Source: Deltaproteobacteria bacterium (lineage in GTDB: Bacteria > Desulfobacterota > Syntrophia > Syntrophales > Smithellaceae). From it: DNA of 39,905 nt. The position numbers and the translations under genes were made by a program. Numbering within the stretch: the stretch's first letter is position 1; every line of letters begins with the position of its first letter. A model generated the notes under the pieces. The model was not told the origin of the DNA and ran no database searches. It saw only the letters and a program-made list of their open reading frames with translations. The stretch spans positions 1-39,905 of the forward strand of contig JAAYDW010000043.1 in assembly GCA_012729055.1 (NCBI GenBank), given 5' to 3'. Below are positions 7,677-32,671 of this stretch, piece after piece.

Positions 7677-7752
7677 AAAAAGGAAAAAAAGCAATGCGGG
7701 TTTTTGCCGGTTTCGTCAGTCCGGAGAACCCGCTCCGACCGAATGTTTTTTG

Positions 7753-7781
7753 TTGACTTCTGCGGGGATTTCCCTTTAATT
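7753..7781 (+). promoter_or_regulatory. promoter-like sequence for the rightward cluster
   Basis: TTGACT (7753-7758), a 17-base spacer and TTAATT (7776-7781) lie just upstream of the dehydratase start at 7803. Transcription from here would begin near 7788, giving a leader of about 15 bases that begins at the AAAAAAGGA ribosome-binding site. Confidence 0.45.
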
Positions 7782-7802
7782 CGAGAAAAAAGGATTTACG
7801 CC

Positions 7803-8984: not shown

Positions 8985-8986
8985 GT

Positions 8987-11877: not shown

Positions 11878-12150
11878 ATGACAAGACAGGAGATTGAAGC
11901 GGAAGTCCGCCGGATTTTTCTAAGCGAGTTTGAAGTTGAAAACCCCGAACCGGATGTCAATTTGCGCGAAGCCTATGGTTTTGACAGCATCGACGCCATT
12001 GAACTCCTGCTCGGCATCGAAAAGTTTCTGGGCTCGGAGCTGACGCAGGAAGAAAAAAAGCAGGCCATCGAGATCCGGACGCTCACTCAGATCATCGACT
12101 ATATCGAAGAACTCGCCCGGAAACGGGGCGTCGTCGCGGAAAGACCATAA
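11878..12150 (+). CDS. acyl carrier protein
   Basis: This 90-residue acidic helical protein carries the growing acyl chain on phosphopantetheine at Ser37 in YGFDSIDAIELL, a variant of the canonical DSLxxVE motif. The preceding EPDVNL and following IEKFLGSEL segments match ACP helices. It lies 132 bases after the FAD oxidoreductase gene and 3 bases before a ketosynthase gene. AAGGAG sits 13 bases upstream of the ATG, a rather long spacing. It is the only ACP I can find in the window, whereas classical APE loci usually have two. Confidence 0.9.
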   Translation: MTRQEIEAEVRRIFLSEFEVENPEPDVNLREAYGFDSIDAIELLLGIEKFLGSELTQEEKKQAIEIRTLTQIIDYIEELARKRGVVAERP

Positions 12151-13399: not shown

Positions 13400-14173
13400 A
13401 TGGCTGTTTCCCGATTTTTAGAGCGTGTCGGCGATTTCGTTCTTACCGTGCTTTTGTGGGCGTATTTTCTTTTCGGCTACCTGTTTATTCTCCTTTTTTT
13501 GTTTGTTCCCACCCGGCTGCGGCTGAAAGACAGCGCCGCCGCGCTGCAGAAAATGAATTTCGTTCACCTGAAAATTTTTTTCGCCTGGCTTCGCCTGCTT
13601 GCGCCCCGCGCCCTGTTTGCAATCGATGAAAACGTGCGCAATCTCCGCTCGTCCATCATTATCTGCAATCACGTGTCCTATCTGGATCCGATCCTGCTGG
13701 TTTCGCTTTTCGAACGCCAGACGACCATCGTCAAAAATACTTTCTTCCGCGTGCCGATTTTCGGCTGGTTTCTGAAAAAGGCGGGGTACGTGCCGTCCTC
13801 CCCGTCCTCGGAAATCTTCGATCCCGCCATGACCGCCAACCTGGAAAACATCAAAAGCCATCTGGCCCGGGGCGGCAACCTGTTCGTGTTCCCCGAAGGC
13901 ACGCGCAGCCGCGGCCGCCTGTTGCCGTTCAACAAGGGCGTTTTCAGCATTGCGCGCTACTGCCGGACCGGCGTGAAACTGGTTTTCCTCGAAAACACCG
14001 ACGCGCTTTTTCCTCCCGGGTCTTTTTCCTTCCGGATGGGCGCCCGAACGACTGTTTCAGCCCAACTGCTCGGGACGCTGGAGCCGGATTACACGGCCCC
14101 GGACTTTTCTCTTGCCGCCGCGGCCGAAGAGGCCCGCCGGATTTTTGCGCGGAAGATCGCCGCGGCCAAATAG
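13400..14173 (+). CDS. PlsC-like 1-acyl-glycerol-3-phosphate O-acyltransferase family protein
   Basis: This 257-residue membrane-associated acyltransferase has an N-terminal hydrophobic segment (FVLTVLLWAYFLFGYLFILL, residues 13-32). The catalytic HX4D motif NHVSYLD has His91 and Asp96, and VFPEGTRSRG is the glycerol-phosphate-binding motif. The family moves acyl groups from ACP or CoA onto a lipid acceptor. In this cluster it may attach the aryl-polyene acyl chain to a glycerolipid or other hydroxyl acceptor (inference). It is the last gene before an antiparallel sensor kinase gene; only 61 bases separate the two stop codons, and I see no strong terminator between them. Confidence 0.87.
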   Translation: MAVSRFLERVGDFVLTVLLWAYFLFGYLFILLFLFVPTRLRLKDSAAALQKMNFVHLKIFFAWLRLLAPRALFAIDENVRNLRSSIIICNHVSYLDPILLVSLFERQTTIVKNTFFRVPIFGWFLKKAGYVPSSPSSEIFDPAMTANLENIKSHLARGGNLFVFPEGTRSRGRLLPFNKGVFSIARYCRTGVKLVFLENTDALFPPGSFSFRMGARTTVSAQLLGTLEPDYTAPDFSLAAAAEEARRIFARKIAAAK

Positions 14174-14215: not shown

Positions 14216-14234
14216 CCACAGACCGTCCTTATCC

Positions 14235-18427: not shown

Positions 18428-18456
18428 TTGACTTTTTGCCTTGCCCATTTTAAGTT
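18428..18456 (+). promoter_or_regulatory. weak promoter-like sequence for the second cluster arm
   Basis: TTGACT (18428-18433), a 17-base spacer and TAAGTT (18451-18456) lie 42 bases upstream of the GTG start of ketosynthase 2. The -10 match is poor. A promoter is expected here because the antiparallel kinase gene separates this arm from the first. Confidence 0.35.
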
Positions 18457-18497
18457 TCGGCCGGTCGGGAACCGATCGGGAAAGAAAGAGGCGGACA

Positions 18498-19754
18498 GTG
18501 AACGCGAAAAAAAGAAAACGCATTGCTATTACGGGGATGGGAACGAAAAACGCCATCGGCGCCGACGTTCCCGAATTTGCCGCCGGCTTAAAGCAGGGCC
18601 GCTGCGGAATTGCGGAAATCGACCTGTTTGACACGAGCGCCTTCCGCACGCACAAGGGCGGCCAGGTCAAAAACTTCAACCCCCGCCTGGCGATTCCCGG
18701 GACGTTTTCCTTGAAGCGAATGTCGCGCGCCGATCAGCTGTCGTTTGCCGCGACGCTGGAGGCGCTCACCGACGCCGGATTTGATCCCCTGCCGGACAAT
18801 GTCACGGAAGAGACGGGGGTGGCCATCGGCGGCGGCTCCGGCGGTCTTTTCGAGGCGGAAAATTTTTACGCGGACCTTTTGAAAAAAGGAATGGCGCAGG
18901 CGAAGTTTTCCCGCCTGGCGACCATTTACTGTGCGTCATCGGCTGACCGGATTGCTTCCGCGCTCGGACTGGGGGGACCGAAAACCACATTTATGACGGC
19001 CTGCTCCGCGGGCGCAACCGCGCTCGGCTACGCCCGGGACCTCATTTCCGGCGGTCAGGCCCGCATCATGCTGGCCGGCGGCGTGGAGCCGATGTGCCGG
19101 ATTACCTATGCCGCGTTTAACGCCCTGAAATCGGTGGACGAAGACGTCTGCCGTCCTTTCGACCGGACCCGCGCAGGGCTTTCGCTGGGCGAAGCGGCGG
19201 CCATTCTGGTTCTCGAACCGCTCGAGGCTGCGCAGGCCCGCGGGGCGAAAATTTACGGAGAGCTTCTGGGATACGGCGTCACCTGCGATTCGTTTCACAT
19301 GACCGCGCCGGATGAAAAGGCTTCCGGCGCCGTGCGCTCCATGCGGGCGGCGCTTGCCGACGCGGGGCTTAGCCCGGCGGACGTGGACTATATCAATGCC
19401 CACGGAACCGCCACGCCGGTCAACGATGTGATGGAAACGCGGGCGATCCGGGAAGTCTTCGGGAAGCGGTCCTACGACATTCCCGTCAGCTCTACCAAAT
19501 CCATGCACGCCCACACGCTGGGCGCGGCGGGCGCGCTTGAGGGAATCGCCAGCCTGCTCGCCCTCTCCGGAGGATTTATTCCGCCGACCGTCAACTTTCG
19601 CGAACGGGATCCCGAATGCGATTTGGATTACGTGACCGAAGGGGCGCGCCGGGCCGATTTGCGCGTAGTTCTTTCCAATTCCTTTGCGTTTGGCGGCAAC
19701 AATACAACCGTGATATTCGGCCGGTACGATGGACAGGGGGCGGCCCATGCCTGA
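18498..19754 (+). CDS. beta-ketoacyl-ACP synthase II-like (active ketosynthase 2)
   Basis: This 418-residue FabF-type KAS has a full triad: Cys169 in MTACSAGA, His302 in NAHGTATPVND and His339 in STKSMHAHTLGAAG with Lys334. The third motif reads MHAH instead of the usual MTGH. I chose GTG at 18498 because a GAGG-type site lies just upstream and the KAS strand RIAITGMG then starts at residue 8; an ATG at 18441 would add 19 Arg-rich residues overlapping the presumed promoter. It overlaps the next gene by 8 bases, the typical arrangement of a KS and its chain-length-factor partner. Confidence 0.88.
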   Translation: MNAKKRKRIAITGMGTKNAIGADVPEFAAGLKQGRCGIAEIDLFDTSAFRTHKGGQVKNFNPRLAIPGTFSLKRMSRADQLSFAATLEALTDAGFDPLPDNVTEETGVAIGGGSGGLFEAENFYADLLKKGMAQAKFSRLATIYCASSADRIASALGLGGPKTTFMTACSAGATALGYARDLISGGQARIMLAGGVEPMCRITYAAFNALKSVDEDVCRPFDRTRAGLSLGEAAAILVLEPLEAAQARGAKIYGELLGYGVTCDSFHMTAPDEKASGAVRSMRAALADAGLSPADVDYINAHGTATPVNDVMETRAIREVFGKRSYDIPVSSTKSMHAHTLGAAGALEGIASLLALSGGFIPPTVNFRERDPECDLDYVTEGARRADLRVVLSNSFAFGGNNTTVIFGRYDGQGAAHA

Positions 19755-20994
19755 GAGACGCGCTTTACCGGACGCCAGGCGCGTCGTGGTGACCGGCCTG
19801 GGAATGGCTACGCCGCTGGGCGTGGGGAAAGACGTTTTTGCCGGGCGGCTTTTTGCCGGCGCAAGCGGAATCGGGCCCGTGCAGGCGTTCGACACGCAAG
19901 CGGCCGCGTCGCGGCTGGGCGCGGAAGTGCGCGATTTTTCCCCGCGCGATTTCATCTCCGTCAAAAATTTGCGGCGCATGGACCGGACGTCGCTTTTGAC
20001 GACGGCGTCGGCCCGCTTGGCGCTTGAAGACGCGAATATCACCGTGACGGAGGAAAACCGCGACCGCGTCGGCATTCTGCTGGGAACGGCTTTCGGCGCG
20101 ACTGACGTCACGGTTTCGGTTGCCGGCGCGCTTCTCGCGGAGGGTCCGGCGTCCGTCAATCCGATTCTGGTGCCCAACACGGTCATGAATGCGCCGGCGG
20201 GCCATGCGTCCATCGAACTGGGATTCCGCGGCGTCAATACGACTGTCACGCATTTCGGCGTTTCGGCGGAAAACGCCATTGCCTACGCCGTTTCGGAAAT
20301 CCGCCGCGGCGCGGCGGATGTGATGCTGGCCGGCGGCGCGGACATTTTGTCGAAGTTCTACTACGAGGCGCTTTCGAAATTCCGCGGCCTGTCTCCGGAC
20401 AACGGAGGCGAAGAAGGCGCCCGTCCGTTCGATGCCGGCCGCAACGGTTACGTGGCCGGCGAGGGCTGCGGCATCCTCTGCCTGGAGTCGCTGGCGCACG
20501 CTCGCGGGCGCGGCGCGGCGATTGCCTGTGAAGTGACCGGCGCGGGTCTGGGGTCGTCCCGGGCCACGCCTTCGGGATGGCCGACCGGCACGGAAGGCAT
20601 CCGGCGGACTTTCCGGCGGGCGCTGGCCGATGCGGCCATCGACCCTTCCGAGGTGTCGGCGGTTTCAGCCGCGGCCAACGGCGGGCGGATGCTGGACGCG
20701 GTGGAGGCGCGCGCCTACGAAGAAATTTTTACCGCCGACGCTGCGCCCTGGATCACATCCGTCAAGGGGGCTCTCGGAGAGAGCTTTTCAGGCGGCGGCA
20801 TTCGGGCTTGCGCTCTGGCGCTATCTGTGGAAAAAGGATGTCTGCCTCCGACGGTCGGTCTGACAAGGCCGATAACCGGCCTTCCCCTGGTTTGGGGCGA
20901 GAAGCGGGAAACCGGGATCAGGCATGCGGTGCAGGCCGGCATTTCCTTCGGCGGAACCTATGCGTACCTGGTGTTCAGCCGTTATGAAAGTTAA
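19747..20994 (+). CDS. chain-length-factor-like ketosynthase lacking catalytic residues
   Basis: This 415-residue KAS-fold protein has all three catalytic positions changed. The Cys position is Gly171 in THFGVSAEN, the first His is Ala309 in VSAAANGG, and the second His is Glu345 in VKGALGES, while Lys340 is kept. Such dead KAS subunits pair with an active KS and set chain length, as in type II polyketide and APE KS-CLF heterodimers. The start at 19747 has AGGGGGC upstream and overlaps ketosynthase 2 by 8 bases, supporting translational coupling and a 1:1 complex. The partner could instead be ketosynthase 1. An upstream ATG at 19729 is in frame but lacks a ribosome-binding site. Confidence 0.85.
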   Translation: MPERRALPDARRVVVTGLGMATPLGVGKDVFAGRLFAGASGIGPVQAFDTQAAASRLGAEVRDFSPRDFISVKNLRRMDRTSLLTTASARLALEDANITVTEENRDRVGILLGTAFGATDVTVSVAGALLAEGPASVNPILVPNTVMNAPAGHASIELGFRGVNTTVTHFGVSAENAIAYAVSEIRRGAADVMLAGGADILSKFYYEALSKFRGLSPDNGGEEGARPFDAGRNGYVAGEGCGILCLESLAHARGRGAAIACEVTGAGLGSSRATPSGWPTGTEGIRRTFRRALADAAIDPSEVSAVSAAANGGRMLDAVEARAYEEIFTADAAPWITSVKGALGESFSGGGIRACALALSVEKGCLPPTVGLTRPITGLPLVWGEKRETGIRHAVQAGISFGGTYAYLVFSRYES

Positions 20995-21006
20995 AGAGGA
21001 CCTGTT

Positions 21007-22530
21007 TTGAATATTGGTGAATGGATCAGCAAAAGAGCGATCATCGCTCCTGATCAACCGTTTCTGACGGATAAAAATAAAGCTTACAGCAATGTCCAGT
21101 TCGACCGGCGGGTCAACAAAACCGCAGAGGCCCTGGCGAAGCTGGGCGTCGTCAAAGGCATGCGCCTGGCGCTCCTGATGTCGAATTCGAGCGAGTTTCT
21201 GGAAATATTTTTTGCCTGCGCCAAGACGGGCGTCATCATGGTGCCGCTCAACACCCGCCTGGCGGTTCCGGAGCTTCTCTATATCCTCCGCGACAGCGCG
21301 CCGGAAATCCTCCTCTACTCTTCCGACTTTGCGGCCAAGGCGCAGAGCCTCCGGGACGCGGGCGCCACAGTAAAGCGCTTATACTGCCTGGCCGAGGCCG
21401 ACGGCGGGGCCGATCCGTATTTTGCCGACTGTGTGGAAGCCGCCGCCGCGTCCGAGCCGGCGGCCGGAGCGGGCGTCGCGCTTACCGATCCGCTTTTCAT
21501 CATGTACACCTCCGGCACCACGGGCGATCCCAAAGGCGCAGTGCTTTCCCATCAGAACATCCTGTTCGGGGCGATTCATTCGCTTTTGGGCTACGGCGTC
21601 GACCGCACGTATAAATCGCTGGTCGTCGCGCCGCTGTTTCACATCGGCGCGCTCGCCGCGTCCGTGACGCCGATTGTTTACGCGGGCGGCAGCATAGTCG
21701 TCAGCAGCTTTTACAACGCTTCCGAAACGCTCAAGACCATCTGCCGGGAAAAAATCAACTACATGTTCGCCGTGCCCGTGATGTACCAGATGATGGCGGA
21801 CGCGCCGGAGTGGCAAGACGCGGATTTGTCGCACGTGCACTTTTTCATTTCCGGCGGCGCGCCGATTCCGCTGCCGGTTATCCGGAAATACCAGGAGGAA
21901 AAAGGCGTAGGCTTTGTCCAGGGCTACGCGCTCACCGAAACGGGGCGCCTGACCTCGCTCGATCTTCGGGACTCCATCCGCAAGGCCGGCTCGGTCGGCC
22001 AGGAAGTGTTTCACGTCAACCTGCGCATCGTCAACGATGCCGGCTGTGACGTCGATCCCGGCGACCCGGGCGAAATCCGTGTGCAGGGCCCCAACGTGTT
22101 TTCCGGCTACTGGAACAAGCCGGCCGCGACGCAAAACGCTTTCCGGGACGGATGGTTCTGCACGGGCGACATGGGGAGGCGCGACGAGGAAGGCTTTCTT
22201 TACATTGTGGGCCGCAAGGTGGAAATGATCATTTCGTCGGGAGAAAATATCTATCCCGCGGAAGTCGAGCGGGCGCTCCAGTCGCTCCCCGAAATCAGCG
22301 AAGCGGCCGTGGTGGGCCTTCCCGACGCCAAGCGGGGCGAGGTGGTGGGCGCGTTTGTTGCGCTGAAAAAAGACATGTCCCTTTCGGAGGCGGAGATTCT
22401 CGCCGCGCTTTCGGGGAAAATCGCCCACTTCAAAGTGCCCCGGCGGATCATTTTTGTCGAGGATTTTCCCCGCAACTCCGGCGGCAAGATTTTAAAGCGC
22501 ATTCTGAAAAAGTGCGTGGAGGACCAGTAG
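21007..22530 (+). CDS. acyl-CoA ligase (AMP-forming), cluster copy 2
   Basis: This 507-residue adenylate-forming ligase has motifs IMYTSGTTGDPKGAVLSHQN (A3), YALTETGR (A5), GWFCTGDMG (A7), IVGRKVEMIISSGENIYPAE (A8) and NSGGKILKRIL (A10 Lys). It appears to start at a TTG (21007) with AGAGGA about 7 bases upstream; no in-frame ATG lies nearby with a better site. It follows the CLF gene by 12 bases and precedes the acyl-CoA dehydrogenase start by 1 base. Ligase and dehydrogenase therefore probably act in sequence on one CoA thioester, for example an aryl-propenoate or fatty acid; that is inference. Confidence 0.88.
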   Translation: MNIGEWISKRAIIAPDQPFLTDKNKAYSNVQFDRRVNKTAEALAKLGVVKGMRLALLMSNSSEFLEIFFACAKTGVIMVPLNTRLAVPELLYILRDSAPEILLYSSDFAAKAQSLRDAGATVKRLYCLAEADGGADPYFADCVEAAAASEPAAGAGVALTDPLFIMYTSGTTGDPKGAVLSHQNILFGAIHSLLGYGVDRTYKSLVVAPLFHIGALAASVTPIVYAGGSIVVSSFYNASETLKTICREKINYMFAVPVMYQMMADAPEWQDADLSHVHFFISGGAPIPLPVIRKYQEEKGVGFVQGYALTETGRLTSLDLRDSIRKAGSVGQEVFHVNLRIVNDAGCDVDPGDPGEIRVQGPNVFSGYWNKPAATQNAFRDGWFCTGDMGRRDEEGFLYIVGRKVEMIISSGENIYPAEVERALQSLPEISEAAVVGLPDAKRGEVVGAFVALKKDMSLSEAEILAALSGKIAHFKVPRRIIFVEDFPRNSGGKILKRILKKCVEDQ

Positions 22531-22531
22531 C

Positions 22532-23674
22532 ATGGATTTGATTCCCTATACCGAAGAACACCGCATTTTCCGGGAGTCTTTCCGCCGGTTTCTGGAAAAG
22601 GAAATTATTCCCCACGTGGACGCGTGGGAAGAAGACGGCATTGTGCCGCGCTGGGCCTGGAAGAAGCTCGGCGAGGGCGGCTATTTGTGCCTGTCGGTGC
22701 CGCCCGAGTTCGGCGGGCAGGGAGCGGATTTCCTGTATTCCGCCGTCATGATTGAAGAGATGGCCAAGGCCAATTTTTACGGGCTTTCCGCCCGCCTGCA
22801 CGGCGATGTCGTCGTGCCTTACCTGGTGCAGCTCGCATCCGTTGAACAGAAGAAAAAATATCTGCCGGGCTGCGTGAACGGCGATATCCTGACGGCGATC
22901 GCCATGAGCGAGCCGCAGGCGGGCAGCGATCTGGCCGGCATCCGGACCACGGCCGTGGAAGACGGCGATGCATTTGTGTTAAACGGTCAGAAGACCTTCA
23001 TCTCCAATGGGATCAACTGCGATCTGGTGATCGTGGCGGCCAAGGATCCCCGGGAGCCCAATCCGCACGCCGCCGTGGATCTGTTTTTAGTGGAAGCCGG
23101 TACGCCCGGCTTCGAGAAGGGCCGGAAACTCGACAAAATCGGCTGGCGCAGCCAGGATACGGCGGAGCTTTTCTTTGCCGACTGCCGGATACCGAAGGAA
23201 AACCGCTTGGGGCCGAAAGGCTCCGGCTTCAGGAATCTGATGAAAAACCTCCAGCAGGAGCGTCTTGTCTGCACGCTCGGCGCGCAGACGGCGGCGGAGT
23301 TCATGCTCGGAGAAACGATCCGCTACTGCAAGGAAAGGCAGGTTTTCGGCAAGCCGCTTACGGGATTTCAAAACACCCAGTTTGCGCTTGCGGAAATGGC
23401 GGCCGAGGTAAAAATCGGCCGGACATTTGTGGATTCCCTGATCGTGGAGCACTGGCGGAAAAATTCGGTCGTGATCGACGTTTCCATGGCGAAGTTCTGG
23501 GTGACGGAAATGGCCTGGCGCACGGCCGACCGCTGTCTGCAACTGTTCGGCGGCTACGGCTACTGCGAGGAGTATCCGATCGCCCGCGCCTGGCGTGACA
23601 TCCGGATTACGCGGATCCTCGCCGGCTCGAACGAGATCATGAAAACGATCATCGCCAAAGCGCTTACCAAATAA
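22532..23674 (+). CDS. acyl-CoA dehydrogenase
   Basis: This 380-residue FAD enzyme oxidises an acyl-CoA to the 2-enoyl-CoA. Family signatures are AMSEPQAGSDLAGIRTTA (flavin contact), KERQVFGKPLTGFQNTQF and QLFGGYGYCEEYPIARAWRD. The position of the MCAD-type catalytic Glu is Ala364 (ILAGSNEIM). A Glu is present at 243 (QQERLVC) where isovaleryl-CoA dehydrogenase places its base, so the enzyme should be active with the alternative base position. It starts 1 base after the ligase stop. An acyl-CoA dehydrogenase is not part of the standard APE gene set, so its role in this cluster is open. Confidence 0.88.
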   Translation: MDLIPYTEEHRIFRESFRRFLEKEIIPHVDAWEEDGIVPRWAWKKLGEGGYLCLSVPPEFGGQGADFLYSAVMIEEMAKANFYGLSARLHGDVVVPYLVQLASVEQKKKYLPGCVNGDILTAIAMSEPQAGSDLAGIRTTAVEDGDAFVLNGQKTFISNGINCDLVIVAAKDPREPNPHAAVDLFLVEAGTPGFEKGRKLDKIGWRSQDTAELFFADCRIPKENRLGPKGSGFRNLMKNLQQERLVCTLGAQTAAEFMLGETIRYCKERQVFGKPLTGFQNTQFALAEMAAEVKIGRTFVDSLIVEHWRKNSVVIDVSMAKFWVTEMAWRTADRCLQLFGGYGYCEEYPIARAWRDIRITRILAGSNEIMKTIIAKALTK

Positions 23675-23694
23675 AAAAATAAAAAAGGGATGCC

Positions 23695-24924
23695 ATGAAA
23701 TTTTTACTGATTTATCCGAAATGGGAAAAGCTGGATCGCCAGACGAGATTTATCCTGCCGCCGCACGGACCGGTCGTGATGGCCGCGGCCCTGCCTCCCG
23801 ACGTGGAGGTGACCTTCATCGATGAAAACGTCGAGCCGGTGGATCTTAACGCCCGGGCCGATTTTGTCGGCGTGTCCATGATGCTCACCGCTCAGGTGAA
23901 GCGCGGCTGGGAAATTGCCGACGCATTTCGCGCCCGGGGCATCAAGGTCATCTGCGGCGGCATCGCCGTGATGCTGCACGCCGAGGAATGTGAGCAGCAC
24001 GCCGATGCGGTGTTTCTGGGCGAAGCCGAAGGCCGGATGGAGCAGGTATTTGACGATTTCAAGGCCGGCCGGCTTAAGAAAGTCTACAACTACATGCAGA
24101 ACTTTCCGCCGATCGAAAGCGTGGGAACGGCCCGCCGCAGCATCCTCAAGCGCGATCTGTACAACTACCGCGGCGTGCAGATGGTCGATCTGGTGCACGC
24201 TTCCCGCGGCTGCCGCTTCAACTGCTATCCCTGCGCGGTGCGTTTTCTGGGCGGCCGGAGTTTCCGCCCCCGCCCCTACGACCGGGTCGTTGCGGAAATG
24301 GCGGCGATCGACAACAACCGCCTGTTCATCGTGGACAATTCGCTTGCGCAGGACCGCGACTGGGAAATCGGCCTTTTCAAGGAAATGATCCCGCTCAAGA
24401 AAAAGTGGTGCTGCCATCCGATCGAAGACGACGATGAGGTCCTGGATCTCGCGGCGCAGGCCGGCGCCTGGTTCGTCTACCAGACGATTTTCGACTCTTC
24501 CGACTACATCCGCGACCGGATCAAACGCTACCACGACCACGGCATCGCCGTGGAAGGCAGCATCCTTCTGGGGCTCGACTACCACACGGAGGACTACATC
24601 AAGCGGTGGATGGACTTCCTCCTGGAAATCGAACTGGACATGGCGGAATTCACGATTCTTACGCCGTTTGTGCACACGCGCACGTTTGACGACCTGCACA
24701 AGGAAGGGCGGATCTCCTCTTACGACTGGAACGACTACACCTGCGGCAAGGTCGTTTTTCAGCCCAAAATGATGACGCCGGAAAAGCTGCAGGAAATGTA
24801 CTATTACTGCTGGGACCGGTTTTACGAAGAAGAGCCGGCCAATTACAAAATGTTCAAGATGCTGAAAAAGGTCATGGACAAGGAAAAAGCGGACGGCACG
24901 TACAAGCCGCGCGTTCGCGCCTGA
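23695..24924 (+). CDS. B12-binding-type radical SAM protein
   Basis: This 409-residue protein has an N-terminal Rossmann-like cobalamin-binding-type domain (about 1-130, with FVGVSMMLTAQVKRGWEIADAFR and VICGGIAVMLH) and a radical SAM core. The [4Fe-4S]-binding CX3CX2C motif is at Cys173, Cys177 and Cys180 (RGCRFNCYPC). No DxHxxG B12 motif is visible, which is normal for class B radical SAM methylases and relatives. The family includes methyltransferases and cyclases acting on unactivated carbons (BchE, HpnP), so C-methylation or ring formation on the polyene or its head group is possible; this is inference. AAGGGATG precedes the start. It sits between the acyl-CoA dehydrogenase and ammonia-lyase genes in the same direction. 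Confidence 0.88.
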   Translation: MKFLLIYPKWEKLDRQTRFILPPHGPVVMAAALPPDVEVTFIDENVEPVDLNARADFVGVSMMLTAQVKRGWEIADAFRARGIKVICGGIAVMLHAEECEQHADAVFLGEAEGRMEQVFDDFKAGRLKKVYNYMQNFPPIESVGTARRSILKRDLYNYRGVQMVDLVHASRGCRFNCYPCAVRFLGGRSFRPRPYDRVVAEMAAIDNNRLFIVDNSLAQDRDWEIGLFKEMIPLKKKWCCHPIEDDDEVLDLAAQAGAWFVYQTIFDSSDYIRDRIKRYHDHGIAVEGSILLGLDYHTEDYIKRWMDFLLEIELDMAEFTILTPFVHTRTFDDLHKEGRISSYDWNDYTCGKVVFQPKMMTPEKLQEMYYYCWDRFYEEEPANYKMFKMLKKVMDKEKADGTYKPRVRA

Positions 24925-24959
24925 ACAGGATGTTCCTGGGAAAGGAGAACAGCTAAGCC

Positions 24960-26513
24960 ATGAAAAAAGTCGGCAGAAAGGCCGCCCTCGTCATCGACGG
25001 CGGCCCTGTCAGTTTTGAGGAAATGATCGCCGTCGCCAAAGACGGCCTCGCCGTCGCGATCAGCCGTTCGCGCGCTTTTCAGCGGCGGATGGCGGCGACC
25101 GAGCGTGCGCTTTCGACATCTCTGAAGAAGGGCGTCGCGGTTTACGGCGTGAACACGGGCTACGGAAAATCATGCGGAAACCGGATCAGCCTGGCGACGG
25201 CCATGAAAAACGGCCCCAATATTCTGAAATTTCACGGGTGCGGCACCGGAGAACCCATCGGCATTGAAGAAACGCGCGCCGCGATGCTTACGCGCATTCT
25301 CTGCCTGGCGCGCGGCTATTCCGGCGTTTCAATCGCTCTCCTGGAGCAGATGGCCGCGTTTTTGAACGCGGGCATTACGCCCGTCGTACCGTGCGAAGGC
25401 TCGGTGGGCGCCTCCGGCGATCTGACGCCGATGTCGTATATCGGGGCGGCGCTCGCCGGCGAGAGGGACGTGTTTTACGAAGGCGACGTGATGCCGTCTG
25501 CGAAGGCGCTCAAGAAAGCCGGATTGAAGCCCCATGTCTATCGGCCCAAGGAGCCCCTGTCGATGGTGAACGGCACGACGACCATGACGGGAATCGCCGC
25601 GATCTCCGTCGAGCGGGCCCGGCGCATTCTGGATGCCGCGATTTACGCCACCGCGTTTTCGGTGCACGCCATGAAAGGCAACGCCCACCATTATCATCCG
25701 GTGATTTCCGAAGCCAAGCCTTTTCCCGGCCAGGCGTCCGTCGCCCGGAAGATCGCCCATCTGCTTTTGTCGAATGTGTCCGCGCGGCAGCTTGAGGACG
25801 ACGCGCTGGAAACCCTGCAGGATCCCTATTCGCTGCGCTGCGCGCCGCAGGTGCTGGGCGTGCTCGACGACGCGCTTTCCTGGATCAAAACGTGGGTGGA
25901 AATCGAGGCCAATTCGTCCAACGACAATCCCATCTTTGATCCCGCAACAGGGCAGGTGCTGATGGGCGGAAATTTCTACGGCGGCCACATCGCCTTTGCC
26001 ATGGACGGCCTCAAGGCGGCGCTCGCGTCCGTCGCGGACATGTGCGACCGCCAGGTCATGCTGCTCGTCAATCCGGACGTCAACCGGGGGCTGCCGGGCG
26101 ACCTGGTGCGCGTCAACGGCGGTTCCGAGGGCCTCTGCCACGGCTTCAAGGCCATGTCGCTGGCGTCGTCGGCGCTGGCGGCCGAGGCGCTCAAGGATAC
26201 GATGCCCGCCGCTTCTTTTTCGCGGTCGACGGAATCGCACAACCAGGACAAGGTCAGCATGGGCACCATCGCGGCTCGCGACGCAGAGCGCGTCTGCACG
26301 CTTGCGGAACGGGTGGCGGCCATTCATCTGCTGACCGCGGCGCAGGCCTGCGACATCCGCGCCAACATCAAGGCCCGTCCGCTTCTGGCCCGGGCGCTCG
26401 GCGACATCCGCCAGGTGAGCGATCCGGTGATTGAAGACCGGCCGCTGGACGAGGATATTGAACGGATGTGCGTGGTCATCCGCTACACGGATTTCTTTCG
26501 GGGGCAATCATGA
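24960..26513 (+). CDS. MIO-type aromatic amino acid ammonia-lyase (HAL/PAL/TAL family)
   Basis: This 517-residue homotetramer-type lyase deaminates an aromatic amino acid to the arylacrylate. It has catalytic Tyr62 (VYGVNTGYG), the MIO-forming triad Ala151-Ser152-Gly153 in GSVGASGDLTPM, SMVNGTTTM, QDPYSLRCAPQVLG and NSSNDNPIF. In my alignment the selectivity pair (His-Leu in tyrosine, Phe-Leu in phenylalanine and Ser-His in histidine ammonia-lyase) is Phe91-His92, so the substrate is uncertain. In APE and flexirubin loci this family supplies the coumarate-type starter. AAAGGAG is 12 bases upstream. It overlaps the thioesterase gene by 4 bases. Confidence 0.92.
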   Translation: MKKVGRKAALVIDGGPVSFEEMIAVAKDGLAVAISRSRAFQRRMAATERALSTSLKKGVAVYGVNTGYGKSCGNRISLATAMKNGPNILKFHGCGTGEPIGIEETRAAMLTRILCLARGYSGVSIALLEQMAAFLNAGITPVVPCEGSVGASGDLTPMSYIGAALAGERDVFYEGDVMPSAKALKKAGLKPHVYRPKEPLSMVNGTTTMTGIAAISVERARRILDAAIYATAFSVHAMKGNAHHYHPVISEAKPFPGQASVARKIAHLLLSNVSARQLEDDALETLQDPYSLRCAPQVLGVLDDALSWIKTWVEIEANSSNDNPIFDPATGQVLMGGNFYGGHIAFAMDGLKAALASVADMCDRQVMLLVNPDVNRGLPGDLVRVNGGSEGLCHGFKAMSLASSALAAEALKDTMPAASFSRSTESHNQDKVSMGTIAARDAERVCTLAERVAAIHLLTAAQACDIRANIKARPLLARALGDIRQVSDPVIEDRPLDEDIERMCVVIRYTDFFRGQS

Positions 26514-26926
26514 CCGGCGGCAAAAAAAGCTTCGAAGTTCGGATCAATGTGCCGTTTTTCGACCTGGATCCCATGCAGATCGTCTGGCACGGCAATTACC
26601 TCAACTACTTTGAAATCGCGCGCGCGGCGCTTTTCGAGCACCACGGCGTCGATCTCTATTCGTATTACGAGCGGGAAAAAATCATTTTCCCCATCATCCG
26701 GACGGCGACGAAGCATATTTTTCCGCTCAAGCACCGCGACGACATCATCGTCAAGGCCACGCTGGTGGACGCCCATATCAAGCTGGTGGTGGATTTCGAA
26801 ATCCGCCGCGTTGACGACGGCAGCGTTTGCGCGCGGGGCCGCACCGAGCAGGTCGCCGTGAAAACGCCGGAAATGGAAACCCTGTTTTCGCTGCCGGAGG
26901 ATATTCGCCGCCTGTTGGGGGACTGA
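26510..26926 (+). CDS. 4HBT-family acyl-CoA/ACP thioesterase
   Basis: This 138-residue hot-dog thioesterase has the active-site signature PFFDLDPMQIVWHGNYLNYFE near the N-terminus, with Asp20 at the position of the catalytic acid of 4-hydroxybenzoyl-CoA thioesterase. It would release or edit acyl-ACP or acyl-CoA (ApeK-like role in APE loci). The ATG at 26510 overlaps the lyase stop (ATGA), which favours it over the upstream in-frame start at 26468. It ends 2 bases before the DAK2-DegV gene. Confidence 0.88.
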   Translation: MTGGKKSFEVRINVPFFDLDPMQIVWHGNYLNYFEIARAALFEHHGVDLYSYYEREKIIFPIIRTATKHIFPLKHRDDIIVKATLVDAHIKLVVDFEIRRVDDGSVCARGRTEQVAVKTPEMETLFSLPEDIRRLLGD

Positions 26927-26928
26927 TC

Positions 26929-28635
26929 ATGGACGATCTTTTGCAGAAAGCTTTTGTCGCCGGCGGAGAGCGGGTGGCCGCCTGGGCGGACCTGCTCGAT
27001 GCCATCAACGTTTATCCCGTGGCCGACGGCGACACGGGCCGGAACCTGGCCGTCAGCCTTTCGCCTCTCCGTTTGGCCGGCGAAAGCGCCGACCGGCTGG
27101 TCCGCCGGCTGCTCGTCGCCGCGCGGGGCAACTCCGGCAACATCGCCTCGCAGTTTTTCTCGGCGTTTTACACGCTGGCCGCCCCGTCCGAGCTGGCCCC
27201 GGCCGTCCGGGAAGCCAACGCGCGGGCCTGGAAGGCGGTAAGCAGGCCCAAACCCGGCACGATGCTCTCCGTGTTCGACGCGCTCGAAGAAACGCTCGGC
27301 CGGCAGGAATTCGGCGGCGACGAAGAAGACGCCGGGCGGATCATCGCCCATCTGGGCGAAGCCGTCCGGGAAACGAAGGAGTTGCTGCCGAAACTCAGCC
27401 AGGCGGGCGTGGTGGACGCGGGCGCCCTGGGCATGTATATTTTTTTTGAAGGATTCTTCTACACGCTGGCCGGCCGGAGCGATTCCTACCGGCCGGTGAC
27501 GGACGTCTTCGCCGGCAGTCTGAAAATTTCGTCTTCCTTCCGCGAAACGGCGGAGAGCGGATACTGCGTCGATTTTGTGGTAAAGGCCGACGCGCCGTCG
27601 GAGGACCTGGCGAAAGTCGCGGGCGCTGAGGAAAGCGCCGTCATTCTTCGCGACGGCGATCTGTACAAAATCCATCTCCACACGGACGACCGGGAAAAGG
27701 TCCGTTCGCAAATGGGCGCCCTGGGCTCCGTCATGACCTGGGAAGACGACAACCTTGCCCTGCAGATCCGGGATTTCATGAACGCGCCTGCGGAGTCAAA
27801 CCTGCACCTGATGACGGACGCCGCCGGATCGGTTACCCGCGACGACGCCCGGAAGTACGGCTTCACGCTCCTGGCGAGCTATCTTAATGTGGGCGATCAA
27901 TCCCTGCCGGAGACGTATTTTCATCCCGCCGAGCTTTACCGCGCCATGAACGATGGAGTCAAGGTGTCCACGTCGCAGGCCTCCGTGTTTGAAAGACATC
28001 AGTTCTACGCAAGTGTGCTGGCCCGGTTTGAAAAAGTGCTGTACCTGTGCGTCGGCTCCGTCTTTACCGGCAACTACGCCGTGGCGATGGAATGGAAAAG
28101 AGAGCATGATCCGGAAAACCGCCTGACGGCGCTCGACACGGGCGCGGCGTCCGGCCGGCTGGGCGTGATCACGCTTGCGACGCAGCGTCATCTGCTGCAA
28201 ACCCGCGACATGGACAAGACGATCGCCTTTGCCCGGGAAGCGGTCGCGCGCTGCGAGGAGTACGTCTTTCTCGAGAAACTGCAATACCTGGCCGCAGGCG
28301 GCAGGCTCTCCAAGACCAGCGCTTTTTTCGGCGACATGCTGAAAATGAAGCCGGTCATTTCCCCGCAGCCGGAAGGCGCCAAAAAGATGGGCGTGGTGCG
28401 CAACCGCAAAGAGCAGATCAGCATGGCGCAGGACAAACTGGCCGCGGCGCTCGGCCGGGATGATTCGGCGCTCATCATGCTGGAATATTCCGACAACAGC
28501 GACATGGTCGCCGAATTGCGGGAGACGATCGGCCGGCTGTATCCGCAGGCGGACATTATCCTCCAGCCCCTGTCTCTCACGTCCGGCGCGCACATGGGGC
28601 CCGGAACGTGGGGCGTGGCTTTTTTAAAACTGTGA
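26929..28635 (+). CDS. DAK2-DegV fusion protein (FakA/FakB-like fatty acid kinase)
   Basis: This 568-residue protein has an N-terminal DAK2 nucleotide-binding domain: NVYPVADGDTGRNL with metal-binding Asp33 and Asp35, and AARGNSGNIASQFF. A middle FakA-type domain follows (CVDFVVKADAPSEDL to KIHLHTDD). From about residue 290 there is a DegV/EDD fatty-acid-binding domain (LHLMTDAAGSVTRDDA, VSTSQASVFERHQFY, GSVFTGNYAVA). In Gram-positives FakA (kinase) and FakB (DegV carrier) are separate and make acyl-phosphate; here both functions seem joined. A role in activating or recycling the cluster's acyl chain is inference. The start at 26929, 2 bases after the thioesterase stop, is chosen over an upstream frame that overlaps it. 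Confidence 0.85.
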   Translation: MDDLLQKAFVAGGERVAAWADLLDAINVYPVADGDTGRNLAVSLSPLRLAGESADRLVRRLLVAARGNSGNIASQFFSAFYTLAAPSELAPAVREANARAWKAVSRPKPGTMLSVFDALEETLGRQEFGGDEEDAGRIIAHLGEAVRETKELLPKLSQAGVVDAGALGMYIFFEGFFYTLAGRSDSYRPVTDVFAGSLKISSSFRETAESGYCVDFVVKADAPSEDLAKVAGAEESAVILRDGDLYKIHLHTDDREKVRSQMGALGSVMTWEDDNLALQIRDFMNAPAESNLHLMTDAAGSVTRDDARKYGFTLLASYLNVGDQSLPETYFHPAELYRAMNDGVKVSTSQASVFERHQFYASVLARFEKVLYLCVGSVFTGNYAVAMEWKREHDPENRLTALDTGAASGRLGVITLATQRHLLQTRDMDKTIAFAREAVARCEEYVFLEKLQYLAAGGRLSKTSAFFGDMLKMKPVISPQPEGAKKMGVVRNRKEQISMAQDKLAAALGRDDSALIMLEYSDNSDMVAELRETIGRLYPQADIILQPLSLTSGAHMGPGTWGVAFLKL

Positions 28636-28658
28636 CGTTAAAGGAAGGTCTCCGACGG

Positions 28659-29441
28659 ATGACGACGCAAGACGGACAACAACGGATGATGAACGGACGG
28701 CAGACGGCGGATGACAATCCGCGGGCGCCGGAAAACCTCGGCCGCTTTGCCTTCATCATTCCCGCCTACAACCATGCCGCGACGGTCGCGCAGGTGGCCA
28801 GAAAAGCCCGGGATATGGGATTTCCCGTTTTTGTCGTCGACGACGGATCGACGGACGACACGCCGCAGCGTCTCGCGGAAATCAGGGACATCCAGGTGCT
28901 CAGCCACGAAAAGAACGAAGGCAAGGGCGCGGCGATCCTGACCGGATTCATGGCCGCCTCGCACGTGGCCGATTACGCGATCACCGTCGACGCGGACGGA
29001 CAGCACGATCCCGAAGACGCCTTGCGTCTGATCAACGTCATCCCGCTCAAAAAACGGCCGGTGGTGGTCGGAGCGCGCGAAGGCATGGACGCCGTCCGGG
29101 GGGCGCACATTCCCTGGACCAGCCGGTTCGGCCGCAAGTTTTCCAATTTCTGGGTTCGCCTCTCCGGAGGTCCGGCCGTTTCGGATTCGCAAAGCGGCAT
29201 GAGAATCTATCCGCTGCCGGAAGCCCTGAGCCTGCCCGTACGGGCGCGGCGCTTCCAGTTCGAAGTGGAGATTCTGGTGCAGGCGCGAAGAAAAGCCATT
29301 CCGGTTTTCGAAGCGCCGATCAGCGTACTGTACAGTCCCGACGGGACCCGCATCTCTCATTTCCGCCCGTTCGTGGACTTCCTGCGCAACGCCAAAACGT
29401 TTACGCGCCTGATCTTTGACCGGATTTTTCACCGGTATTGA
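28659..29441 (+). CDS. family 2 glycosyltransferase
   Basis: This 260-residue GT-A fold enzyme resembles polyprenyl-phosphate sugar transferases. It shows FIIPAYNHAATV, VVDDGSTDDTPQ (about 59-70), NEGKGAAILTGF and the metal/nucleotide motif VDADGQHDPED. There is no C-terminal TM domain, so it would be cytoplasmic or peripheral. In APE loci glycosyltransferase-like proteins act late; here it could glycosylate the lipid or acceptor (inference). The ATG at 28659 has AAGGAAGG 10 bases upstream; ATG at 28686 is an alternative and conservation begins only around residue 29. It starts 23 bases after the fusion gene. Confidence 0.87.
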   Translation: MTTQDGQQRMMNGRQTADDNPRAPENLGRFAFIIPAYNHAATVAQVARKARDMGFPVFVVDDGSTDDTPQRLAEIRDIQVLSHEKNEGKGAAILTGFMAASHVADYAITVDADGQHDPEDALRLINVIPLKKRPVVVGAREGMDAVRGAHIPWTSRFGRKFSNFWVRLSGGPAVSDSQSGMRIYPLPEALSLPVRARRFQFEVEILVQARRKAIPVFEAPISVLYSPDGTRISHFRPFVDFLRNAKTFTRLIFDRIFHRY

Positions 29442-29596: not shown

Positions 29597-32500
29597 ATGC
29601 CGCCTCGCCGATACCCCATAAAATGGTCGATCGTTCTTGTCACCGCCCTTGTCGTGGGGGTGTTGTTCTTCTGGGAAACCCGCCATTTAAACATTGAAAC
29701 CGACATTCTGGAATCCATGCCGCGCCATGATCCGATCCTGGCTTCCGCCCGGCGGGTGATCGGTCATCTGCCCGTTTCGGACAAGGTTTTCGTCGATCTC
29801 GAACAAGCTTCCGAAAATCCCGACAAGCTGGCGCGGGCGGCCCGGCTCGTTGAAGAGACGTTAAATGAAAGCGGTTTGTTTGCGCGTGTCGGCATCGCCG
29901 ACGAAGCGGGCGCGTTTCCGGAGCTTTTGGCGCATGTCCGCGAACGTCTGCCGTCGCTCTTTTCCGCGGACGATCTCGAACGCAAAATCGCGCCGCTTCT
30001 GGCGCCGGACAAGATCCGGGAGACGATGGCGCAAAACCGGCGGAGCCTGGAAGATCTGCAGGGCATCGGCCGGGCGGACATGATCGCCGGGGATCCGCTG
30101 GGATTTTCCTTTGTGATCCTGGAGCAAATGTCCGCGCTCCTGCCGACCGGTTCCGCCCGGTTTCATTCCGGCCAACTGCTCTCCGCCGACGGCCGCCACG
30201 CGCTTATCATCGCCCGCCTGGCCGGTTCGGGAACGGATACGACCCGGGCGGCGAAAATCGCCCAGACGCTGGACGACGCCGGGCGGATGCTCGCGGCGCA
30301 TCCGGAGTTGAACGACCGCTACGTTCTCACGCCGGTGGGCGGCTATCGTGCGGCGCTGGACAATGAAACCGTCGCCAAACGCGACACGCGGCTGGCGGTT
30401 TTGCTTACGACGCTGGGCATTGCGCTGTTGCTGATTCTGGCCTTTCCCCGCCCGCTCATCGGCCTGGCGGCGCTCCTGCCGTCCATGGTCGGAGCGATTG
30501 CGGCGCTGTTTGTCTGCTCTTTTCTTTTTCAGTCAATGTCGCTTCTGGCGGTCGGCTTCGGCGGGGCGATTCTGGCCTTTACGGTCGATCTGGGACTTAC
30601 CTATCTTTTGTTTCTGGATCAGCCCCGGACCACGGGCGGCCGGGAGGCGGCGCGGGAAGTGTGGTCGGCGGAGTTCACGGCGGCCCTGACCACGATGGGC
30701 GCCTTTTTGCTGCTTCTGGTGAGCGATTTTGAAATCCTTGCCCAAATCGGCGTATTTGCCGCGCTGGGCATCGGCTTTGCCTTCACTTTCGTCCATATCG
30801 TCTTTCCCCGGATTTTTCCGGCCCTGCCGCCGGCCCGGCGCGAATCCAACCGCCGGCTGGCGCGCGCCATCCGGAAAATCGCCGCGCCGGCCGGGTGGAA
30901 GCCGGCCGCCGCGCTGGTTTTCGGCCTCGTCATGCTGTTTTTCGCCAAACCGGTTTTCAACGTGGACCTGCAGGCCATGAATTCCGTAAGCCCCGAGACG
31001 ATTGCCGCCGAAAACAAACTGCAAGGGGTTTGGGGCAATCTTTCCGGCCGGTGCTATGTCCTTGTGGAAGCGCCGACGCTCGCGGCGCTGCAAAAGAAGA
31101 ACGAGCGGCTGGAGGTGTTCCTCGCGGGCGACGCCACGAGCGGCAAACTCGCCCCCGTTTTTTTGCCGACCCGAATCTTTCCGTCGCGGGACGCGGCCGC
31201 CGGCCATTTTGCCGCCTGGAGCGCGTTCTGGACGCCCGAACGCGCCGCAGCGCTCCGGCGCGATTTCGGAAACGCGGCGCGAGAAAACGGTTTTGCGCCG
31301 GATGCCTTCGAGCCTTTCTGGCGGATGTTCTCCGCGGACGCGCCGGTCGCCGTCGCGATTCCGCCTCGGTATTTTGATCTGCTGGGCATTGCTCCTGCGG
31401 CCCAGGGCTTTGCGCAGCTCAGTCTGCTTACGGCCGGAAAAAACTACAACGCCCGGGAATTCTTCTCCCGTCTCACCGGCGCGGAGCTGGGCAGCTTCTT
31501 TGACGCGGATCTTTTCAATCGCCGACTGGGGGAATTCCTGAAAGAAATTTTTATCGAAATCGCCTTTATCGTCAGCATCGGCCTGATGGTCGTGATCTTC
31601 TTCTTTTTTCTGGACTGGCGCCTGTCGCTTGCTATTCTGGCGCCCGTGGCTTTTGCGCTTGTCTCCACGCTGGGGACCCTCAAACTGCTCGGCCGTCCCC
31701 TGGACATTCCCGGCATCATGCTGTGGGTCGTGATTCTGGGCATGGGCGTGGACTACGCGATTTACTACGTCTGCACCTATCAGCGCCATCCGGATGAACA
31801 ATCGCCGGCGCTGAACACGGTGAAGCTGTCCATCTTTCTTTCCGCCGCGACCACGTTCATCGGCTTCGGCGTTCTGGCGCTGGCCCGTCATTCCCTGCTT
31901 CAAAGCATCGGCCTGGTGTCGCTTTTGGGCGTCGGCTACTCGCTTTTAGGCGTCTATTTCATTTTGCCTTTCCTGATGAAAAAAATCTTTGCGCCGTTTA
32001 CCTTTCCCGCGGGCGCGCTCCAGGCGGGATCGCGCGAGCATGCCCGCCGCGTCCTTTTGCGTTACCGGCTGCTGCCCGGTTATCCGCGGGTGTTTGCCCG
32101 CTTTAAGATGAAGATGGACCCCATGTTTGCCGAACTCAACCGTTATGTGCAAAATCCCCGCCGGATCATCGACATCGGCTGCGGCTACGGCGTGCCGGCC
32201 GTGTGGCTTCTGGAACTGCACCCGGAGGCGAGCGTTCTGGGCCTCGAGCCGGATGAGGAAAGGGCGCACATCGCCCGCCGCGTCCTCGGGGCGCGGGGAG
32301 CCGTGCAGACGGGACTGGCGCCGGACCTGCCCGAGGGGGAAAGTCCGGCCGATCATGTCCTGATGATCGACATGCTGCATTACCTGGACGATGAGGCCCT
32401 GCGACTGGTTTGCCGGCGGATTTACGAGAGGCTTGCGCCGGAAGGCGTCCTGGTGATCCGCGCGACCGTGCCGTCGGAAAGCACCTTCCCCTGGAAAAGA

Positions 32501-32671
32501 TGGGTGGAAGAGGCGCGCCTCAAAATCACCCGGACGCCGCGGCGTTTCCGCCGGGAAGAGACGATTGCCGGATTTCTGGCCGCCGCCGGATTTGACGCAA
32601 GCGTGCATTCCTCGCCGGTTTCCGGCGTGGAAGAAAAATGGTTTGTCGGAAGGAAACCGCAGCCGCGCTGA
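29597..32671 (+). CDS. MMPL/RND-type exporter fused to a SAM-dependent methyltransferase
   Basis: This 1024-residue protein joins two parts. Residues 1 to about 795 form an MMPL/RND permease: TM1 at 10-28, a large periplasmic loop, a TM bundle around 265-405, TM7 near 437, a second loop, and TMs around 650-795 with GMGVDYAIYY, the RND proton-relay-type motif. Residues about 850-1024 form a class I methyltransferase with motif I IDIGCGYGVPAVW (856 on) and acidic LGLEPDEE. Exporters of this family move the aryl polyene to the outer membrane, and APE loci also contain a separate methyltransferase; here they are one polypeptide with no stop or frameshift between. AAAGG precedes the start by 6 bases. 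Confidence 0.9.
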   Translation: MPPRRYPIKWSIVLVTALVVGVLFFWETRHLNIETDILESMPRHDPILASARRVIGHLPVSDKVFVDLEQASENPDKLARAARLVEETLNESGLFARVGIADEAGAFPELLAHVRERLPSLFSADDLERKIAPLLAPDKIRETMAQNRRSLEDLQGIGRADMIAGDPLGFSFVILEQMSALLPTGSARFHSGQLLSADGRHALIIARLAGSGTDTTRAAKIAQTLDDAGRMLAAHPELNDRYVLTPVGGYRAALDNETVAKRDTRLAVLLTTLGIALLLILAFPRPLIGLAALLPSMVGAIAALFVCSFLFQSMSLLAVGFGGAILAFTVDLGLTYLLFLDQPRTTGGREAAREVWSAEFTAALTTMGAFLLLLVSDFEILAQIGVFAALGIGFAFTFVHIVFPRIFPALPPARRESNRRLARAIRKIAAPAGWKPAAALVFGLVMLFFAKPVFNVDLQAMNSVSPETIAAENKLQGVWGNLSGRCYVLVEAPTLAALQKKNERLEVFLAGDATSGKLAPVFLPTRIFPSRDAAAGHFAAWSAFWTPERAAALRRDFGNAARENGFAPDAFEPFWRMFSADAPVAVAIPPRYFDLLGIAPAAQGFAQLSLLTAGKNYNAREFFSRLTGAELGSFFDADLFNRRLGEFLKEIFIEIAFIVSIGLMVVIFFFFLDWRLSLAILAPVAFALVSTLGTLKLLGRPLDIPGIMLWVVILGMGVDYAIYYVCTYQRHPDEQSPALNTVKLSIFLSAATTFIGFGVLALARHSLLQSIGLVSLLGVGYSLLGVYFILPFLMKKIFAPFTFPAGALQAGSREHARRVLLRYRLLPGYPRVFARFKMKMDPMFAELNRYVQNPRRIIDIGCGYGVPAVWLLELHPEASVLGLEPDEERAHIARRVLGARGAVQTGLAPDLPEGESPADHVLMIDMLHYLDDEALRLVCRRIYERLAPEGVLVIRATVPSESTFPWKRWVEEARLKITRTPRRFRREETIAGFLAAAGFDASVHSSPVSGVEEKWFVGRKPQPR

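Follow-up and report, generated by a model that had tools for sequence, protein, structure and literature searches.

We analysed a stretch of 39,905 nucleotides (the window), which is the whole of one contig (C15; GenBank JAAYDW010000043.1) in a genome of 3.36 Mb, with attention to a gene for a radical S-adenosylmethionine (SAM) protein of 409 amino acids (aa). The gene is intact and lies 20 bp downstream of an intact gene for an acyl-CoA dehydrogenase of 380 aa, on the same strand (Table 1). An AMP-forming ligase gene ends 1 bp before the start of the dehydrogenase, and an aromatic amino acid ammonia-lyase gene begins 35 bp after the radical SAM gene. All four belong to a run of ten co-directional genes (positions 18441 to 32671) whose neighbours overlap or lie at most 155 bp apart, a spacing for which we chose the start codons of two genes. 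An earlier reading of the same DNA (the original prediction) had described the adjacent pair with these flanks and had placed cysteines at positions 173, 177 and 180 of the radical SAM protein; both descriptions proved exact. The nearest homologues listed in a search of genome contigs, at most 94% identical, come from metagenome-assembled genomes (MAGs) of Smithella or Smithellaceae. We place the host among the Syntrophales, as a Smithella-like bacterium.

The radical SAM gene keeps constant company. We collected 80 homologue loci, the best 80 of 258 confirmed stretches, all at least 69% identical; by title they are mostly deltaproteobacterial or Desulfobacterota MAGs, with one from SAR324, one from Spirochaetes and a few that name no group. 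At least one core gene of aryl-polyene (APE) assembly was present in 78 of the 80 loci and at least three in 70. The two loci that lack a core gene are contigs shorter than 4 kb, which still carry the ligase plus either the dehydrogenase or the ammonia-lyase. Absence of such co-occurrence was the outcome that the original prediction had named as fatal to itself, and we observed the opposite. Loci below 76% identity usually read dehydratase (DH), ketoreductase (KR), LolA-like carrier, lipoprotein, radical SAM protein; where 4 kb of upstream sequence was available, KR was present in 27 and LolA in 26 of 29 such loci. We picked the identity thresholds that separate near from distant loci after a first look at the relatives. 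Of the twelve proteins of the cluster whose conservation we measured, none surpasses the radical SAM protein: its median identity in loci below 76% is 71.6% (n=40), compared with 63.8% for the ammonia-lyase (n=13), 59.5% for KR (n=33), 40.3% for LolA (n=34) and 38.0% for DH (n=26).

The same association was seen across the phylum. In a sample of 395 Desulfobacterota genomes, 52 carry the radical SAM gene; at most four candidates were scored per genome, and absences may be false. Outside the window's own family (f1) there are 45 carriers; we took neighbourhoods for 40 of them, leaving out G103, G222, G283, G370 and G415. Counting from 25 bits upward with profiles that we built, we observed a core gene in 39 of the 40 neighbourhoods, at least three in 34 and a beta-ketoacyl synthase (KS) in 38. 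Around looser paralogues, which score 230 to 287 bits against the family profile, a KS or a homologue of the ligase ApeH was found in just two of eight regions. The chain-length factor (CLF) of the assembly line follows the radical SAM gene closely among 59 relatives: all 37 genomes with a CLF have the radical SAM gene, and none of the 18 genomes without that gene has a CLF. These presence lists were read by hand, with a CLF scored as present at 57% identity or more and with radical SAM fragments in G017, G028 and G058 scored as present.

The original prediction had also treated the dehydrogenase as a partner of the radical SAM protein, and here it was not sustained. Near loci (at least 76% identity, at least 4 kb upstream, n=26) contain the dehydrogenase in 12 cases, the ligase in 14, both in 11 and neither in 11. 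The dehydrogenase was found in none of the 29 distant loci (4 kb upstream) and in none of the 40 phylum loci. We therefore rejected the two proteins as a fixed functional pair, as the dehydrogenase was not found in 14 of the 26 near loci or in any of the distant ones. We conclude that the dehydrogenase and the ligase are an optional module of the Smithella group and accessory to the cluster. The dehydrogenase itself is of the long-chain acyl-CoA dehydrogenase (LCAD) type. Pfam recognises all three acyl-CoA dehydrogenase domains in it (E 1e-40 to 1e-24). Of solved structures, 2pg0 gives the best match (458 bits) and human LCAD the second, and the likeness to both spans the whole length. In the alignment, Glu243 falls on the glutamate within PQERL of human LCAD, the catalytic base of that enzyme. 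It differs from these enzymes in sitting in a biosynthetic operon, and it scores under the cut-off of every equivalog model in NCBIfam, the best being AcrC (290.6, cut-off 640).

What kind of radical SAM protein is it? The B12-binding domain PF02310 was matched at 34.1 bits (gathering score 32.1) and Radical_SAM at 24.2 bits, below its gathering score of 29.5. Both domains were matched at E of 0.01 or better in 46 of 46 homologues, and Cys173, Cys177 and Cys180 are invariant in an alignment of 46 sequences. The protein thus has the class B architecture of cobalamin-dependent radical SAM enzymes, an N-terminal B12-binding domain together with CxxxCxxC. NCBIfam models all scored far lower than their cut-offs: TIGR04013 led with 48.7 bits (cut-off 251), followed by TIGR04072 rSAM_ladder_B12 (48.5, cut-off 360), HpnJ (42.5, cut-off 577.6), BchE (34.5, cut-off 481.35), HpnR (33.7, cut-off 650) and AprD4 (23.5, cut-off 500). 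Hence the protein makes the cut-off of none of the modelled families, and its placement in a family of known, unrelated function, the other finding that would have told against the original prediction, did not occur. No HpnP model was among its NCBIfam matches; DUF4070, presumably the C-terminal domain of HpnP, was matched weakly in 6 of the 46 homologues. In a tree of 35 proteins, in which long branches were flagged, 17 sampled homologues form a single clade (support 100/100), separate from TIGR04072 members, from BchE-like neighbours and from the looser paralogues. TIGR04072 proteins share the B12-binding and radical SAM architecture and are genomic partners of the family, as described below, but belong to a separate clade.

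We then considered the fold. An AlphaFold2 model of the protein (mean pLDDT 86.5) resembles AprD4 (PDB 6fd2), a radical SAM 1,2-diol dehydratase, most closely among solved structures (VIA-align Z 29.6, root mean square deviation 2.9 over 372 residues). The next folds by Z are MgmA (22.5; 3.6 over 335 residues), OxsB (21.5; 4.1 over 373), CysS (21.0; 4.1 over 374) and TsrM (20.9; 4.0 over 377). BchE and HpnP have no row in this list, which excludes neither. A family profile searched against PDB sequences also returned AprD4 first (E 1.9e-11, mainly residues 142 to 366). Despite the likeness of fold, the two proteins are only 20% identical over aligned residues; AprD4 is not known to carry cobalamin, and the family of the window's protein retains its match to the B12-binding domain. 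Likeness of fold alone shows no reaction. Among the matches listed in a search of open-licence literature, no paper treated this radical SAM protein in APE clusters in its title or the opening of its abstract. We regard the cluster, which is anaerobic, of APE type and has at its core a radical SAM family that no model covers, as a new form of a familiar system.

The cluster around the gene was compared with the ape cluster of Escherichia coli CFT073, whose proteins we searched against 25 window proteins by BLAST, with roles as given in Table 1 of PMC8253772. Matches were obtained for ApeH, P, Q, L, R, D, O, K, J and M and for carrier proteins. The strongest of those quoted here are ApeQ (E 1.6e-67) and ApeH (3.7e-35); ApeE/F reached 7.4e-08, and ApeP (1.1e-07) and the export genes ApeM (2.4e-07) and ApeL (2.5e-05) are weak matches, in the range 1e-7 to 2e-5. 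ApeG (COG4648), ApeN, ApeC and the methyltransferase ApeB had no match below E 0.01 among the 25 proteins. The window has a KS with a CLF that lacks the active Cys, as well as KR, DH, ACP (acyl carrier protein) and a dedicated acyl-ACP ligase, and Lol-like and RND/MMPL export genes, ApeN being assigned by position alone. The KS at 18441 has ApeR as its best E. coli match and ApeO second; we name it ApeO-like because it is paired with the CLF. By homology, then, the window is predicted to encode most of an APE set. The original prediction had called it a polyene assembly line, and the ape homologues together with the KS/CLF pair bear this out; the CrtI-like oxidoreductase that it had pointed to was recovered by Pfam as well. 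Beyond the E. coli set, the window adds the radical SAM protein, the ammonia-lyase, the ligase, the dehydrogenase, the CrtI-like protein and a FakA/DegV protein. The E. coli cluster has no annotated radical SAM gene.

Table 1. Predicted features of the APE-type cluster in the window
Feature	Coordinates	Strand	Evidence and remarks
ApeH-like acyl-ACP ligase	6259..7632	-	BLAST
ApeP-like hot-dog dehydratase	7704..8225	+	BLAST; 22% identity, E 1.1e-07, no Pfam match
ApeQ-like ketoreductase	8250..8984	+	BLAST
LolA-like carrier (ApeL)	8921..9613	+	BLAST
Putative lipoprotein, ApeN (DUF3261) counterpart	9610..10251	+	Position only; no Pfam or ApeN match
CrtI/CrtD-like FAD oxidoreductase	10267..11745	+	Pfam; best NCBIfam CrtD, 83.6 bits (cut-off 549.7)
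Acyl carrier protein	11878..12150	+	BLAST
ApeR-like beta-ketoacyl synthase	12154..13392	+	NCBIfam, BLAST
ApeD-like lysophospholipid acyltransferase	13400..14173	+	BLAST
ApeO-like beta-ketoacyl synthase, active Cys kept	18441..19754	+	NCBIfam, BLAST
Chain-length-factor-like KS, active Cys and HGTAT His lost	19729..20994	+	NCBIfam, active-site check; ApeC unmatched
AMP-forming acid-CoA ligase, usually accompanies dehydrogenase	21007..22530	+	Pfam, NCBIfam
Acyl-CoA dehydrogenase, long-chain type, Glu243	22532..23674	+	Pfam, PDB relatives; accessory
Cobalamin-domain radical SAM protein, 409 aa, Cys173/177/180 (CxxxCxxC)	23695..24924	+	Pfam, NCBIfam, alignment, AlphaFold2
Aromatic amino acid ammonia-lyase, Ala-Ser-Gly triad, Phe-His selectivity pair	24960..26513	+	Pfam, NCBIfam, alignment
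ApeK-like 4HBT thioesterase	26510..26926	+	Pfam, BLAST; ORF open from 26468, ATG 26510 preferred
Fusion of FakA-type (Dak2) and DegV/FakB-type domains	26929..28635	+	Pfam; ORF open from 26827, ATG 26929 preferred
ApeJ-like glycosyltransferase 2	28608..29441	+	BLAST
ApeM-like MMPL exporter, C-terminal methyltransferase domain	29597..32671	+	Pfam, BLAST

The ammonia-lyase has the family domain and an intact Ala-Ser-Gly triad. At the positions aligned to 89 and 90 of Rhodobacter tyrosine ammonia-lyase it has Phe-His; an aligned Rhodobacter chain with Phe at 89 is presumably the H89F mutant. Since this pair governs selectivity, phenylalanine rather than tyrosine is probably the substrate. We looked for the enzyme in 15 genomes that carry the radical SAM gene, hand-picked and mostly chosen for loci without a nearby ammonia-lyase: nine had no match, four had distant ones (31 to 46% identity, some of them fragments) and two had close ones (64 to 65%). 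The nine genomes without a match indicate that the radical SAM step is independent of the ammonia-lyase.

The original prediction had likened the window to ladderane-type lipid loci. TIGR04072, a family named for such loci, was matched at E 1e-95 or better in 98 of the 395 Desulfobacterota genomes, 83 of them over the cut-off. Such matches occur in 45 of the 52 carriers of the radical SAM gene and in 53 of the 343 non-carriers (Fisher p 1.8e-24, which ignores relatedness and so overstates independence); when only scores above the cut-off are counted, 41 of 52 carriers and 42 of 343 non-carriers have one. The radical SAM and TIGR04072 matches adjoin in 21 carriers, with gaps of 47 to 302 bp, lie 1.3 to 21 kb apart in 15 others and are on separate contigs in nine, where only the best match per genome was considered and gaps were measured between matched stretches. 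The association is not strict: seven carriers, 89 to 99% complete and five of them at least 96%, have no TIGR04072 match at 1e-95, and a fuller search of two of these (G351 and G405) gave best matches of 158 and 102 bits.

Published descriptions were compared with the window. Rattray 2009 (PMC2649909) described Kuenenia clusters with KS paralogues and with SAM radical, phytoene-desaturase-like and polysaccharide-deacetylase-like enzymes. That study also reported clusters of this sort from Desulfotalea, Geobacter and Pelobacter and detected no ladderanes in Desulfotalea psychrophila. For Desulfobacterota MAGs, clusters of ladderane type are already on record in PMC9902471, which also names radical SAM proteins among the frequent tailoring enzymes. 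As these descriptions have it, the window shares KS paralogues, a phytoene-desaturase-like gene and a radical SAM gene with the Kuenenia, Desulfotalea, Geobacter and Pelobacter loci; it differs from them in having a single radical SAM gene and no TIGR04072-type protein, the TIGR04072 set of this genome lying on another contig (C97). We conclude that the ladderane comparison was partly right: it holds for this genome and those related to it, not for the window locus.

That second locus (L192; C97 27500 to 47000, locus coordinates 9631 to 19406) contains a TIGR04072 protein scoring 387.6 bits. Neighbouring genes encode a polysaccharide deacetylase, two KS, a thioesterase, a dehydratase-like protein and a PlsY-type acyltransferase; there are also an ORF that looks hot-dog-like by eye and a pair of short radical SAM-like ORFs (369 and 331 aa). 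The short radical SAM calls are weak; the 369-aa ORF scores 28.0 bits, below the gathering score, and the counterpart of the 331-aa ORF in another ladderane-type locus (L193) scores 32.0 bits. The C97 locus resembles the published anammox ladderane candidates. At least two ORFs of at least 330 aa matched the radical SAM profile in 32 of the 40 phylum loci. L174, L144, L183, L193 and L076, which comprise sister clusters and the ladderane-type locus of L193, encode extra BchE- or HpnJ-like B12-radical SAM proteins (best scores 151 to 194 bits, below the cut-offs).

We favour, and think fairly probable, the reading that the window's protein is a cobalamin-domain radical SAM enzyme that belongs, as a tailoring enzyme, to the core of APE-type lipid assembly in anaerobic Desulfobacterota, and in the single SAR324 and Spirochaetes MAGs. 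In nearly all the cases examined, its gene has KS/CLF, KR, DH, Lol-type export or acyl-transfer genes for neighbours. It would convert SAM to a 5'-deoxyadenosyl radical at the cluster bound by Cys173/177/180, the N-terminal domain holding cobalamin, and its substrate would be the (aryl)polyene or an acyl intermediate of it. The accessory dehydrogenase would probably adjust a CoA-bound starter derived from the product of the ammonia-lyase, for instance by reducing or desaturating cinnamoyl- or arylalkanoyl-CoA. Several observations weigh against this reading. The KS matches of some of the 38 KS-bearing phylum loci are weak (L166, L167 and L173, at 26 to 50 bits), a LolA, lipoprotein or MMPL homologue was found in only 26 of the 40 loci, and one locus (L153) has no core gene within 13.6 kb. 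Four relatives (G002, G019, G053 and G058) carry the radical SAM gene with no CLF found at 57% identity or more, one of them (G019) having a 66-residue CLF fragment at 62% identity. Moreover, the closest fold is titled a dehydratase rather than a methylase, and the MMPL protein already holds a conventional methyltransferase domain.

Which reaction might the enzyme perform? The original prediction had listed methylation, cyclisation and desaturation as possible, and all three are; we add radical dehydration because the closest predicted fold is that of AprD4. Within the favoured reading, our first guess would be methylation of a carbon in the head group or chain, which we hold at somewhat less than an even chance. 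The ranking follows PMC13142503, which associates cobalamin radical SAM enzymes mostly with methylation and counts enzymes that form rings or carry out rearrangements among the exceptions. A radical step without methylation (dehydration, oxidation or ring closure) would be almost as likely, given the AprD4-like fold and those exceptions. Since the nearest fold is a dehydratase, methylation stays a first guess only.

Other explanations of the protein have to be set against the favoured one. The least unlikely is that it is an AprD4-like radical dehydratase or deoxygenase, in which a radical formed beside a hydroxyl group causes loss of water, perhaps from a hydroxylated acyl chain or a glycerol-type anchor, the cobalamin domain being maybe a relic. 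The lead of AprD4 over every other fold and its profile match speak for this. However, the NCBIfam AprD4 model scores far below its cut-off, the B12-binding domain is matched in every homologue, compact size alone may favour AprD4 over larger methylases, and a common fold is no proof of function. We think it rather improbable that the protein is a ring-forming or desaturating ladderane-type enzyme that acts on the polyene together with TIGR04072. It is not itself a TIGR04072 member, no match at 1e-95 was found in seven carriers, separate contigs hold the two genes in the window genome and, in the published account (PMC2649909), ladderanes were not detected in Desulfotalea psychrophila, against which stand the enrichment of TIGR04072 among carriers, its adjacency in 21 genomes and a gene mix like that of the anammox and Desulfotalea loci described there.

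We give still less credence to a BchE- or HpnJ-like oxidation or rearrangement, an anaerobic stand-in for an oxygenase on the head group. Anaerobic hosts, an ammonia-lyase that probably yields an unhydroxylated head group and weak C-terminal matches to both models would suit such a role, but the scores are far under both cut-offs and the separate BchE-like proteins of the sister clusters suit it better. That the dehydrogenase and the radical SAM protein together catalyse a two-enzyme step of their own, as their 20-bp spacing might suggest, is very improbable: the radical SAM gene persists in the 14 near, 29 distant and 40 phylum loci where the dehydrogenase was not found. There is, finally, a wider conjecture that we rate as doubtful. 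The APE-type and ladderane-type loci might be two halves of one anaerobic lipid system, in which the window enzyme would prepare an (aryl)polyenyl chain, which TIGR04072 and the two short radical SAM proteins would then remodel into a ring-bearing outer-membrane lipid unknown in Desulfobacterota.

On the favoured reading, that of a core tailoring enzyme of APE-type assembly, anaerobic soil and sediment bacteria regularly include an unnamed B12-type radical enzyme in a gene set like the clusters for yellow aryl-polyene pigments. In many related species its gene adjoins a ladderane candidate gene. A radical enzyme that is fixed in these clusters and genetically tied to TIGR04072 offers a handle on ladderane candidate genes through the Desulfobacterota. 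By this route the candidates could be sorted into those that do ordinary polyene work and those that do something special.

Further observations concern other genes of the window and its relatives. An enoyl-CoA hydratase gene at 32853 and a 397-aa ORF downstream of the cluster (34107 to 35300, no Pfam match) were rejected as cluster members; neither was found in the relatives' loci by tblastn at E 1e-8. A 1,326-aa ORF further downstream (35683 to 39663), with an SH3 domain as its sole Pfam match, falls outside the 10-kb flanks of those loci, so its absence there is uninformative. In the middle of the cluster, on the opposite strand, lies a 1,336-aa ORF (14235 to 18245) that resembles a sensor kinase, judging by its sequence, and has homologues in L012 and L020. 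In one relative (L080, positions 4878 to 7058), a protein of about 720 aa encoded upstream of a DH-KR-LolA operon combines a KS with a second KS-like domain (Pfam, L080 only). It is probably a fused KS/CLF, and ORFs of similar size lie in L060, L071 and L081. The joining of the MMPL exporter to a C-terminal methyltransferase domain is an unusual pairing of export with possible head-group modification. The fusion of Dak2 (FakA) and DegV (FakB) domains in a single protein within an APE-type operon suggests that the polyene acid may be converted to an acyl phosphate ahead of its transfer to a lipid. In one related locus (L074), a FakA/DegV fusion of this kind has a PlsY-type gene at a distance of about 6 kb.

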